Positions 39,784 through 43,903 of a DNA stretch of 64,000 nt are shown one piece after another; the stretch's first letter is position 1; every line of letters starts with the position of its first letter. The stretch spans positions 248,001 through 312,000 of the forward strand of contig JALSQX010000067.1 in assembly GCA_026985075.1 (NCBI GenBank), written 5' to 3'. This DNA is from Blastocatellia bacterium (lineage in GTDB: Bacteria > Acidobacteriota > Blastocatellia > HR10 > J050). The notes under the pieces were generated by a model. The model made no database searches. It saw only the letters and a list, made by a program, of their open reading frames with translations, and had not been told where the DNA came from. Both the position numbers and the translations under genes were made by a program.

Positions 39784-41943
39784 ATGAAGATCACTACACT
39801 CTCAAACGGACTTCTTTGTGTTCTTTTCCTGGCTGCTTCTCCTCGATGGGAGGCATTGATTCCGGATTGCTCACCACACATGATGAGGATTCCCGTCGGC
39901 CAACAGCCGGAGTCGGTGATCGTCGCCGACCTGAACGGCGATGGACGCTCCGATCTCATCACCGCCAACGGAAGCTCGGACGATATCTCTGTGTTGTTGG
40001 CCGAGGACGGCTCATTCCAGGAACGTCGGTTTCCGGCCGGGAGCGGTCCTCGGACCGTAGCCGTTGGCGATGTCACCGGTGATGGGCATGTGGATGTGCT
40101 CACGGCTAACTTCCGTTCGCGAGATATCTCCGTTCTCGTTGGTCGGGGTGATGGGTCCTTCTTTCCCTCGAGCCGCATCTCCGTCAGCGACCGGCCCGTC
40201 TTCCTGACCCTGGCGGACCTGGACGACGATGGCGCCCTGGACATCATCATCGCCCACGGCGGCGAATTAGATCGCCGTGCGTCGACGATCGCGATCTTAC
40301 GGGGGAATGGCGATGGGAGCTTCGCCGCCGAACGGCGACTCGCCGTCGGCCAGGATCCGGCAGCCGTGGCGGTGGCTGATATCAATGGCGATGAGCTCCT
40401 GGATCTCATCGTCGCCGACGCTGGATCTGATGCGGTGTCGATTCTGCTCGGCCGGGGCGACGGCTCCTTTCGTCCGGGACGTGTCGTCTCCGCCGGCGAT
40501 CGGCCCGTTTCCGTGGCGGTGGCCGATGTGAACGGCGATGGTGCTGGCGATGTGATCGCCGCCAATGAGCTCTCTGGTGATCTCTCGGTGCTTCTCGGGC
40601 GCGGAGACGGTTCTTTTCAGAGGCCAAGACGCGTGCCCGTCGGCCTCAATCCCACCGACGTCATCGCCGATGATCTCAATGCCGACGGATGGCTCGATCT
40701 GGTCGCGGTCAATGCTGGATCGGACGATCTCTCCGTCCTCTTGGGTCGGGGCGATGGAACTTTCCACCCGGAGCAACGGTTCGTCGCTGGCGATAGCCCC
40801 TCGGCGGTGGCCGTCCTGGACGTCAATGCCGACGCCCGCCCAGATCTGATCACGGCCAACGCGGGATCGAATGACCTCGCCCTGCTGATCGGTTGCGGTG
40901 ATGGGCGATTCCGATCTCGCCGCCATTTCGCCGTCGGAGGGAACCCATTCGCCCTCGTGATTGAAGATCTCAACCGGGACGCCCGGCCCGACGCCATCGT
41001 GGCCAATGCGGGCACGGACGATATTTCCATCCTCCTGGCTGATGGGGACGGGACATTTGGCCAGCAGCGGCGCTGGGGAGCGGGTGACAGTCCGCTGCAG
41101 GTTTTGGCCGCCGATCTGAACGGCGATGACAACCCCGACCTCGTCACGGCGAACGTCGGTTCCGATGATGTCTCCGTCTTTCTGGGAATCGGTGACGGGG
41201 AGTTTCGTCCTCAGCGTCGCTTCTCCGCCGAGAAGACGCCCCGCTCGGTGGCCGCGGGCGATATTGATGGAGATGGCTGGCCGGATCTCGTCGTGGCCAA
41301 CGCCAGCATCAACAGAGTGACCATCCTTCGAGGCAATGGAGATGGGACATTCCGCCGCCAGCGATCGGTGGGAGTGGGTGAGACGCCTACTGCGGTCGCG
41401 CTCGGCGATCTGAACGGCGATGGTCTGCTGGATCTCATCGCGGTCAACGTCGGCTCTGATGATCTCTCTGTGTTGCCCGGTCGGTCCGATGGAACATTCG
41501 GTCCTCAGCGTCGCATTCCTGTGGGCCAGAATCCCGTCTCGATCCAACTCGCCGACGTGAACGTGGATGGCGTTGAGGATCTCGTCATCACCAATGCCGG
41601 ATCTGATGATCTGTCGATCCTTCTGGGTGCAGGGCACGGACTCTTTCGGCCTCAGCGACGCATACCCGTCGGTGATCGCCCCGCCTCGACGGCGGTGGGC
41701 GACCTCAATGGGGATGGCTCGCCCGATCTCGTTGTCGCCAACGAGTCATCCGATGATGTCTCCGTCCTCATAGGGAATGGAGATGGCTCCTTTGAACCGC
41801 AACGCCGCTATCCGGTGAGTGAAATGCCCCGTTCGGTAGCCATCGCCGATGTCAACGCCGATCATATACCGGACGTGATCGTTTTGAGCGGGGGCGCTGG
41901 AGCGGTGACCATTCTGCTCGGCCGGGGCGACGGCTCATTCTGA
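39784..41943 (+). CDS. Secreted FG-GAP/VCBS repeat protein, 14 repeats
   Basis: A 719-residue exported protein made almost entirely of FG-GAP (VCBS) repeats. A signal peptide (NGLLCVLFLAASP) is followed by fourteen units of about 49 residues, each with a calcium-type loop DLNGDGxxDL near its middle (e.g. DLNGDGRSDL, DVTGDGHVDV, DINGDELLDL), then LLGRGDGSF or a variant. Fourteen units would make two seven-bladed propellers. AGAGGGAGAGG stands right before ATG 39784. No enzyme domain or anchor is attached. Likely a cell-surface or secreted binding protein. Confidence 0.92.
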   Translation: MKITTLSNGLLCVLFLAASPRWEALIPDCSPHMMRIPVGQQPESVIVADLNGDGRSDLITANGSSDDISVLLAEDGSFQERRFPAGSGPRTVAVGDVTGDGHVDVLTANFRSRDISVLVGRGDGSFFPSSRISVSDRPVFLTLADLDDDGALDIIIAHGGELDRRASTIAILRGNGDGSFAAERRLAVGQDPAAVAVADINGDELLDLIVADAGSDAVSILLGRGDGSFRPGRVVSAGDRPVSVAVADVNGDGAGDVIAANELSGDLSVLLGRGDGSFQRPRRVPVGLNPTDVIADDLNADGWLDLVAVNAGSDDLSVLLGRGDGTFHPEQRFVAGDSPSAVAVLDVNADARPDLITANAGSNDLALLIGCGDGRFRSRRHFAVGGNPFALVIEDLNRDARPDAIVANAGTDDISILLADGDGTFGQQRRWGAGDSPLQVLAADLNGDDNPDLVTANVGSDDVSVFLGIGDGEFRPQRRFSAEKTPRSVAAGDIDGDGWPDLVVANASINRVTILRGNGDGTFRRQRSVGVGETPTAVALGDLNGDGLLDLIAVNVGSDDLSVLPGRSDGTFGPQRRIPVGQNPVSIQLADVNVDGVEDLVITNAGSDDLSILLGAGHGLFRPQRRIPVGDRPASTAVGDLNGDGSPDLVVANESSDDVSVLIGNGDGSFEPQRRYPVSEMPRSVAIADVNADHIPDVIVLSGGAGAVTILLGRGDGSF

Positions 41944-42082
41944 ACGGGCGTTCATGGAGGGGGCGCGGGCTATCCCCTTCTGAATTCGTCGCGGGCGAGC
42001 CGGTGCGAGATGAGGCCTTCCATCAATGGGGGGGTGATCGTCGGTCCGGACCGGCTGGGGAATCGAACGCCTTCTTCAGAAG

Positions 42083-42811
42083 CTATCCGCGCACATCCAT
42101 GCGGTCGACCATCAAGATCAATCGGGTGGGCACGGGATGGCCACCGGCCATCGCTGGACGAAACTGAAGCGCGCCCAGCGCCGTTCGGACGAGTTCCATC
42201 AACTGGGGTGTGCCAGCCGGCTCGACGAGTTGGATCAGCGAGGCGCGCCCATCAGCATGAATCATGGCGACGACGACGATAGGCGTGGTCTTCATTTCGG
42301 CCAGCGACACGCCCGATGACTGGGCTTTTCGAATACGCGGAAATGTGTACGATGGCGCTTCGAGGGAGGAGGAACTCAGCCCATTGATCCACTGGTATTG
42401 CGAGGCGCTCACCGTGATCATCGGGGCGCGAACGGAAACAGGGATTGAGGGGATGGGCTTCATTTGCCCGAGAATGGCTCCATAACACACGGCCGTAATC
42501 AAAAAGCTCGCCACGGCGGAGACGGGTCGGGCATGTGACATGACCCAGTTGGCCAATGTCGTCCATATCCCCGTTTGTGGCCTCTGCTGGAGTCGCGTGA
42601 CCGCGGCCACCGTCTCGGCAGCCAGCGTGGCGGGCGGCATGACCGGGGGCAACATCCCGAGCCGCCGGCTGACCTCATCGAGTTCACCAAGGTAAGCGCG
42701 ACAAGACGCACACCGACTCAGGTGCTGAAGAACATCACGGTGCTCCGGCGGCGTCAATTGGCGATCCAGGTAAGCGGAAGCCAATTTCTGACATTTTCGG
42801 CAATTCATCAT
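42083..42811 (-). CDS. Anti-sigma factor: zinc-finger, one membrane span, TonB-C-like periplasmic part
   Basis: A 242-residue protein encoded after the ECF sigma factor. The N-terminal MNCRKCQKLASAYLDRQL...HLSRCASC segment is a ZAS-type zinc finger (H-x3-C-x2-C) that holds the sigma factor. A membrane span near residues 95-115 (VSAVASFLITAVCYGAIL) follows. The extracytoplasmic end (VAMIHADGRASLIQLVEPAG, ALGALQFRPAMAGGHPVPTRLIL) resembles the C-terminal beta-alpha-beta domain of TonB-type proteins, which may sense a peptide or envelope signal. ATG 42811 is preceded by AGGAGAAGGA. It lies 138 bases after the sigma stop with a structured spacer between. Confidence 0.85.
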   Translation of the reverse strand: MMNCRKCQKLASAYLDRQLTPPEHRDVLQHLSRCASCRAYLGELDEVSRRLGMLPPVMPPATLAAETVAAVTRLQQRPQTGIWTTLANWVMSHARPVSAVASFLITAVCYGAILGQMKPIPSIPVSVRAPMITVSASQYQWINGLSSSSLEAPSYTFPRIRKAQSSGVSLAEMKTTPIVVVAMIHADGRASLIQLVEPAGTPQLMELVRTALGALQFRPAMAGGHPVPTRLILMVDRMDVRG

Positions 42812-42842
42812 ATTCCTTCTCCTCATCTTCCCCGGATGACTC

Positions 42843-42949
42843 ACCAGCTCCGGCTTAGCCCACCCACTGTGGGCGCGGAAGTTGCTGACCTATATTCAAA
42901 CATCTCGCCGGTTGACCCATCGGCGGTTAAACTGTAAGCCGGAGCTGGT
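42843..42949 (-). repeat. Structured spacer bounded by 15-bp inverted repeats, between sigma and anti-sigma genes
   Basis: ACCAGCTCCGGCTTA (42843-42857) and its perfect complement TAAGCCGGAGCTGGT (42935-42949) enclose 77 bases. Inside are two smaller inverted repeats on the minus strand, GCCCAC/GTGGGC and CGCCG/CGGCG, so the RNA could form a three-way junction. The right arm starts on the last base of the sigma stop codon. Confidence 0.7.
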
Positions 42950-43680
42950 CAATCATCCTCTGCGTCGCGATAGCCCCCGCAGAGCACCTGTCTCAATCTC
43001 TCACGACCTCGGGCGATCCGCGATTTCACCGTACCAACAGAGATCCGCAGGATATGGGCGATCTCCTCATAACTACATCCTTCGACATCGCGCAAGATCA
43101 CGGCGACGCGATAACTCGGTTTGACCTGCCGGAGAGCCCATTCCAAGTGTTGTTGCCGCTCGCGATCCAGTAACACCTGCTCGGAATTCGGCCGCGCATC
43201 GGGGAGCGTTTCGATGACGGCGCGCTGCTGACCATTGTGCGGTCCATCCAGGGAGATCGTGCGGTCGCGGGCGCGGCGCTGCCACCAGCGCCGGTGATTG
43301 GCCGCCTGCCGCAGAGCGATGCGATAGATCCAGGTTCTCAGACTCGCCTCGCCACGAAACTGGTCGATCTTCTGATAGACGCGCAGGAATGTCTCCTGAG
43401 CCAGATCACGCGCCTCTTCGGCATCACCAATCAACCGATAAAGGAGCCCATAGACGCTCGGTTGATAGTGAACTACTAGCCATTCGAAGGCCAATCGGTC
43501 CCCCTGGCGCACCCGTTCGATCCACTCTGCTTCACTGGCGGACGCTTCATCCGCGACAGTGAGGTTGTCATCGAGAATCCGTTCTGCGACAGCGACAGAC
43601 AGCATCTTGACTGCTCCTTCGACCATCGACCGATCAGCCTCTTCCGACGTTTCCTCCCAGCTATTAGACACCGATTCCAT
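42949..43680 (-). CDS. ECF RNA polymerase sigma factor (RpoE-like)
   Basis: A 243-residue extracytoplasmic-function sigma factor. After a ~45-residue N-terminal extension, region 2 spans FEWLVVHYQPSVYGLLYRLIGDAEEARDLAQETFLRVYQKI (core binding and -10 recognition) and RTWIYRIALRQAANHRR; region 4 has ALRQVKPSYRVAVILRDVEGCSYEEIAHILRISVGTVKSRIARGRERL (helix-turn-helix for the -35). Start ATG 43680 is supported by a -10 TAAAAT about 35 bases upstream. Paired with the downstream membrane anti-sigma factor. A classic GAAC-type autoregulated ECF promoter is not obvious upstream. Confidence 0.93.
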   Translation of the reverse strand: MESVSNSWEETSEEADRSMVEGAVKMLSVAVAERILDDNLTVADEASASEAEWIERVRQGDRLAFEWLVVHYQPSVYGLLYRLIGDAEEARDLAQETFLRVYQKIDQFRGEASLRTWIYRIALRQAANHRRWWQRRARDRTISLDGPHNGQQRAVIETLPDARPNSEQVLLDRERQQHLEWALRQVKPSYRVAVILRDVEGCSYEEIAHILRISVGTVKSRIARGRERLRQVLCGGYRDAEDD

Positions 43681-43840
43681 GATAAATGTTCCCAACCTGA
43701 CCTTTTTATTTTACCCCAACTTCGCCAGTCGAGGAAACGACCGACGAGACTGCTGGCGCGCCACTGGAAAGGTGGTTGCTCCCCAAGGAGGCGTTCATCG
43801 TTGAGAGGCTCCTACCGAACATGGCCCGGGTGATACGACC

Positions 43841-43869
43841 TTGACAGAAGAAGGCGCACAGTCTTAACT
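43841..43869 (+). promoter_or_regulatory. Promoter of the TPR-like membrane protein
   Basis: Perfect -35 TTGACA (43841-43846), 17 bases, TTAACT (43864-43869), leader of about 28 bases ending in GGAGGAGGAA. Confidence 0.65.
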
Positions 43870-43903
43870 TTCCACTTGAGATTCACGTGGAGGAGGAACG
43901 ACG

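Follow-up and report, generated by a model that had tools for sequence, protein, structure and literature searches.

Control of ECF sigma factors is commonly attributed to their anti-sigma proteins, and translational coupling of the two genes also sets the ratio of sigma to anti-sigma. On the RNA level, RNase III processing stems flank rRNA precursors; the element described here may be likened to them in that a long near-perfect stem encloses a conserved core, but it lies between two cistrons of a regulatory operon and its cleavage is a proposal. Closer in kind are the candidate cis-regulatory and riboswitch-like motifs obtained by comparative genomics, which, in the parts of the two reports used here (PMC2864571, PMC11109978), share with our element a conserved core, covarying stems and a fixed gene context. 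In contrast to such motifs, the element is placed within an operon, flanked by an ECF sigma gene and its anti-sigma gene, with no visible expression platform and no Rfam match. Two RNA motifs, Acido-1 (RF01686) and Acido-Lenti-1 (RF01687), appear among the motifs listed for Acidobacteria in PMC2864571 and are, like the predicted element, structured RNAs of this phylum, but neither model matches it. Acidobacteria did not turn up in a term search of PMC11109978, whose passages on sigma deal with other motifs.

A search of window positions 42500-43300 against Rfam 15 gave a single match (E 4.6), located outside the element and far below the gathering score. Nothing exceeded the gathering score at the sigma loci of 18 relatives, where the matches below it were to eukaryotic microRNA and lncRNA models (L018, L033, L020) and to GP20-b (L023). 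Acido-1 had no match at the window locus and none in 20 relatives, the latter search being uninformative since its control was silent everywhere. Acido-Lenti-1 likewise had no match at the window locus and was absent from G000-G002, while being multi-copy at other places in several relatives. Literature searches found no paper on such an element, and our statement that it is not described rests on these searches together with Rfam. We class the element with a known sort of RNA, the conserved structured intergenic RNA, as a new family that has an unusual place within a regulatory operon.

The window, i.e., the whole stretch of 64,000 nucleotides analysed, contains the features listed below in the order of their transcription. 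Here and throughout, G and L numbers denote genomes and loci and f numbers denote families; R1, R2 and R3 are covariance models trained on f1-f3, on f5 only and on f8, respectively; A2 is the type A alignment (10 sequences) and A4 the type B alignment (25 sequences).

42949..43695, minus strand: ECF sigma factor gene (Sigma70_r2, Sigma70_r4_2; start codon unsettled)
42834..42958, minus strand: whole predicted structured RNA element (125 nt; full-length R1 and R2 matches)
42935..42958, minus strand: P1 5' arm, containing the sigma stop codon (P1 covariation in relatives)
42906..42925, minus strand: P2 hairpin with loop AUGGGUCAAC (pairs kept, without covariation in A2)
42881..42890, minus strand: conserved GGUCAGCAAC motif, G-R-Y-CAGCAAC in relatives (proposed partner: GGUC of the P2 region)
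42858..42874, minus strand: P4 hairpin (changes on both sides at 2 of 5 counted pairs in A2, with few sequences, and at 6 of 8 in its A4 counterpart)
42834..42857, minus strand: P1 3' arm (P1 covariation in relatives)
42815..42823, minus strand: likely anti-sigma Shine-Dalgarno AGGAGAAGG (by sequence inspection; outside the RNA element)
42083..42811, minus strand: anti-sigma factor gene (zf-HC2), with ATG 42811 chosen by us as the likely start

The original prediction described perfect 15-bp arms enclosing 77 bases and starting with the final base of the sigma stop codon, which is exact (arms 42843-42857 and 42935-42949), and the repeat turned out to be larger than described: beyond one G.G mismatch the P1 helix extends 9 positions outward, giving 24-nt arms and a unit of 125 nt (42834-42958). 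The two inner hairpins that it had placed between the arms are likewise present, as P2 and P4. Since both genes lie on the minus strand, the RNA in question reads as the reverse complement of the strand as printed. The 107-base unit folded with z -5.5 on the plus strand and -4.7 on the minus strand, and 0 of 200 dinucleotide shuffles were as good on either. From the single sequence, the minimum-energy fold of the minus strand (-66.3 kcal/mol) lacks the two hairpins, and forcing P2 and P4 gives a fold 1.5 kcal/mol less stable (-64.8 kcal/mol); the relatives lend support to the two-hairpin layout as the probable one.

Comparison with these relatives shows a conserved structured RNA, the outer stem of which covaries strongly and is kept by compensatory change beyond shuffled controls. 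In A2, 91.2% of cells were paired and 12 pairs had changed on both sides (shuffled mean 5.2). In A4, 94.7% of cells were paired, and changes on both sides numbered 18 by pair and 75 by cell, where shuffles averaged 8.9 and 21.9; 0 of 500 shuffles reached such values in either alignment. As for further pair types, A2 did not exceed its shuffles, 478 of 500 of which had as many. When partners were slid by 1-3 columns, pairing fell to 23.2-47.6% in A2 and to 24.5-47.0% in A4, and RNAalifold run without a given structure recovered P1 from A2 and A4 alike and, from A4, P4 as well. The MAFFT alignment A1, which misaligns P1 of f8 and f9, was excluded from the pair counts. The covariation of P1 backs the earlier suggestion of a structured intergenic RNA forming a multi-branch junction closed by a long stem, and the stem is kept in orthologues, contrary to the lack of conservation at orthologous loci that was named there as a refutation. 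P2 did not covary in A2, and the UGGGUC part of its loop is invariant in 10 of 10 A2 sequences. The GGUC of this region could form a kissing helix with GRYC, for which four pairs are possible in 21 of 25 A4 rows and in 16 of 17 A1 rows (in the seventeenth, G056, which A1 misaligns, GGGCC and GGCC are present). In A4, RNAalifold arrives at this pairing by itself, but the shuffle control showed no covariation beyond chance; we offer the kissing helix only as a proposal.

Every version of the element has an outer P1 that encloses two segments, one resembling GAUGGGUC and, after it, one resembling G-R-Y-C-A-G-C-A-A-C. In type A, which is that of the window's order, a CGCC/GGCG hairpin, P2, presents the GAUGGGUC-like segment as its loop, and all three genomes of f1 as well as G006 carry the additional P4 hairpin before the P1 3' arm. 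Type B (f5) is a longer RNA, 183-280 nt for full-length matches, with a longer P4 and in most cases an added AUCG-GUGCCAAA-CGAU hairpin. In f8 and f9 the P1 sequence is quite different and the helix still forms. At 18 type A, f8 and f9 loci the best P1 helix scores ranged from 30.5 to 74, whereas 90 shuffles averaged 22.1 and reached at most 31.5; the lowest were those of f9 (L048 30.5, L039 32.0 and L032 32.5), shorter helices at the edge of the shuffle control. Swapping P1 arms between families (n=244) gave a mean helix score of 25.8 and a maximum of 49.5, the high scores coming mainly from swaps within f1, f2 and f3, families with P1 sequence in common.

Matches between groups indicate that these versions belong together. 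R1 matched the window element, one of its own training sequences, over its full length (E 5.0e-24), and it also matched f5 loci (e.g., L033, L030, L026 and L035) and the f8 loci L040, L023 and L062. In a scan of the 162 genomes of the class, R2, trained on f5, found the window element (E 7.2e-10) together with the G001 and G002 elements, and R3 matched the G006 (f3) element (E 0.002). The models thus detect each other's groups, and we regard it as near certain that a conserved RNA family of this kind exists. Summing the three models, the family was found in 121 of the 162 class genomes, many of these being training sequences of the model that counts them, at one copy per genome: 107 by R2 (3 f1, 104 f5), 7 by R1 (f2-f3) and 7 by R3 (f8). 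R2 matched 108 genomes in all, of which G012 (E 0.089, 20 bases) was not counted, and four f9 genomes are further motif-level cases beyond the 121. In samples of 396 genomes of the phylum, R2 had a match in 28, all in the class except one weak partial match, and R1 in five, all from the window's order; among 80 named sigma-like loci R2 had five matches, all in Acidobacteriota and two of them in Pyrinomonadaceae. The class carrying the family would thus be Blastocatellia of the Acidobacteriota.

A search of 98 relatives with the sigma protein gave sigma-like matches in 98 of 98, and 90 loci were read, namely the best matches of 89 genomes and one second sigma gene from the window's own genome. 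The RNA is present at 71 of these loci, 66 by covariance-model match and five by motif and helix (L032, L038, L039, L050 and L095), and absent at 19, i.e., in f4 (5/5), f6 (9/9), f7 (1/1), f5 (2/53) and f8 (1/7) and at the second sigma gene in the genome of the window. In a maximum-likelihood tree built from the 90 sigma proteins, where families were mostly grouped, presence of the RNA took 6 changes compared to a shuffled mean of 17.5. A history of one early origin and several losses would fit this pattern. In the same intergenic gap, short inverted or tandem repeats of other kinds (e.g., GGATTTCGGATT-type, GGACTGA units) flank or replace the RNA at L016, L018, L024, L054 and L064 (f5) and at L027 (f6).

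At all 66 model-positive loci, which were all found through the sigma gene, the element was read directly 3' of the ECF sigma gene, and at 65 of them a zf-HC2-type ORF with an H-x3-C-x2-C motif comes next, the contig of L063 ending early. From the sigma stop to P1 the median distance is 8 nt (range -149 to 115; 57 of 66 loci, the other nine lacking the sigma motif used for measuring), while P1 and the anti-sigma ATG are a median of 42 nt apart (range 12-154; 65 of 66 loci). P1 is at or just past the sigma stop in most loci, and in some f5 genomes it begins 44-115 nt past it. In the window, the anti-sigma ORF stays open back to GTG 42844, inside P1. The sigma ORF ends 149 nt past the element start in G006 (L012) and 87 nt past it in G003 (L070), and the sigma frame of G032 (L095) also reads through the RNA element; the element is not strictly untranslated in these three genomes because the sigma frame runs into or through it.

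In contrast to translationally coupled genes, the two genes are here separated by a long, structured intergenic RNA, while six f6 relatives without the RNA (L043, L045, L056, L058, L065 and L097) have nearly abutting or overlapping genes, the next ORF starting -4 to +17 nt from the sigma stop, as coupling would predict. In the stretch read at these six loci, the ORF after sigma shows no H-x3-C-x2-C motif. The genes at f4 loci without the RNA are not tightly coupled, with gaps of 44-107 nt, and loss of the RNA therefore accompanies tight gene spacing only in part.

We consider it somewhat better than an even bet (probability about 0.55) that the element serves within the messenger of sigma and anti-sigma as a dedicated, structured RNA acting in cis, setting the output of anti-sigma relative to sigma. 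P1 would separate the two cistrons, such that anti-sigma is not simply translationally coupled to sigma; the core, made up of the P2 loop GAUGGGUC, GRYCAGCAAC and often P4, would be read by a factor, be it a protein, an RNA or a small molecule; and this factor would set the amount of anti-sigma via translation or mRNA cleavage and not via an intrinsic terminator. Classic attenuation, one of the mechanisms offered in the original prediction, is at odds with the finding of 0 intrinsic-terminator-like sites (GC-rich hairpin followed by a U-run) in window positions 42000-43900, where shuffles had a mean of 1.2. The other proposals made there, processing and a role in fixing the ratio of sigma to anti-sigma, are plausible. 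Because no intrinsic terminator is seen and the likely Shine-Dalgarno lies outside the element, the output would be cleavage, mRNA stability or another effect on translation. Several observations count against a cis-acting role. No obvious pairing that would sequester the Shine-Dalgarno was seen by inspection for the window's anti-sigma gene, the likely site of which is outside the element. The RNA is absent at 19 of 90 sigma loci, of which those in f4 are not tightly coupled; the element is partly translated in G006, G003 and G032; P1 is 44-115 nt off the stop in some f5 genomes; and covariation is lacking for P2 (A2) and, beyond chance, for the loop-loop helix. On the other hand, a single-copy RNA kept over most of a class and apparently lost few times points to a second control of the ratio, on the RNA level, and many soil Acidobacteria carry this folded RNA, which probably helps to set the amount of the inhibitor.

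More specifically, the element could represent a new riboswitch-like RNA class, in which the core binds a ligand or protein and, via P1 at the sigma stop, alters the amount of anti-sigma made per sigma; we hold this version tentatively and lean against it. If true, a riboswitch-like RNA would give ECF sigma signaling a second, RNA-level input, and the threshold of a stress response would be tuned by RNA and not only by the anti-sigma protein. The family is well defined by models, alignments and named relatives, and similar elements may occur in the sigma operons of other phyla.

The main rival to the cis-acting RNA is a processed small RNA, in which P1 is a cleavage stem for a double-strand-specific enzyme (RNase III), as in rRNA, so that cutting separates the two mRNAs and frees a stable RNA of about 80-200 nt acting elsewhere. 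We regard this as unlikely, albeit worth serious attention: in types A and B the helix of P1 runs almost without interruption over about 21-24 pairs, long and near-perfect as such a stem would be, the pairing of P1 is kept while its sequence changes between families, the core is more conserved across families, and the location in one operon is compatible with such a release. However, 0 promoter-like sites were found in the window region scanned (sigma-70 consensus only), and the sequence of P1 is also conserved within types A and B, beyond what a generic cleavage stem needs. Cis-regulation and release of a small RNA by P1 cleavage are not mutually exclusive.

Next, P1 could be a plain hairpin insulator, which only blocks translational coupling or shields mRNA ends, with a core that has no binding role. 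That P1 abuts the sigma stop in most loci would suit such a function, as would the strong hairpins of L027 (z -6.8) and L081 (z -4.1) and the weaker folding of L094 (z -2.5), all loci without the conserved core, but the UGGGUC and CAGCAAC core bases are kept across families with entirely different P1. Moreover, the element is identical at 122 of 125 bases (98%) between the window and its congener G001, compared to 85.6% for the sigma gene and 83.3% for the anti-sigma gene, more than an insulator needs, and we find this explanation improbable. Among loci scored as lacking the RNA, L081 (G063), L094 (G055) and L037 (G014) retain an inverted-repeat hairpin where P1 would otherwise stand, with unusually stable folding in L081 and L094 and not in L037.

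It is also conceivable, with very little probability, that the element acts as DNA, as an operator or a cruciform, given that an inverted repeat could serve as a protein site. Against this speaks the strand asymmetry of the pairs, as cells with G-U outnumber those with A-C by 89 to 12 in A4 and by 10 to 5 in A2, an imbalance that assigns the RNA to the sigma strand; R1 and R2 also score this strand much higher than the opposite one.

An inserted or mobile repeat of the MITE or REP type with terminal inverted ends, also raised in the original prediction together with the possibility of many scattered copies of the 107-base unit, has the long inverted ends and the occurrence of such repeats in the class (Acido-Lenti-1 copies) in its favor, but is ruled out for practical purposes by single-copy, syntenic conservation, by a vertical pattern on the sigma tree and by the absence of any match among 50,697 phage and 72,556 plasmid records searched with distant BLAST. 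In the window's own genome a DNA search found the element once, the matches of its two arms to each other being set aside and all others being of 14-28 bases with E of at least 0.07. In whole-genome scans of the class, which did not use the sigma gene, the strong second matches within a genome fell only on the reverse strand at that very site.

Weak partial R2 matches in G140, G076, G118, G038, G088, G101 and G371 were taken as chance; these seven are confined to roughly positions 106-221 of the model and have hardly more in common than CAGCAACA and a loose hairpin. Weak R1 matches were obtained at G000:C105 (E 0.02), G039:C56 and G030:C69, none of which R2 matched, and weak R3 matches at G095:C328 and G115:C70. 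Acido-Lenti-1 itself proved highly multi-copy in some members of the class, with 150 matches in G014 and 92 in G018 and further ones in G011, G013 and G019. Many of the copies form inverted pairs with a spacing of about 129 nt, which has the look of a REP or MITE-type repeat rather than of an RNA with a single function. A 719-residue ORF on the plus strand (39784-41943 of the window) is convergent to the anti-sigma gene and consists almost entirely of FG-GAP repeats.
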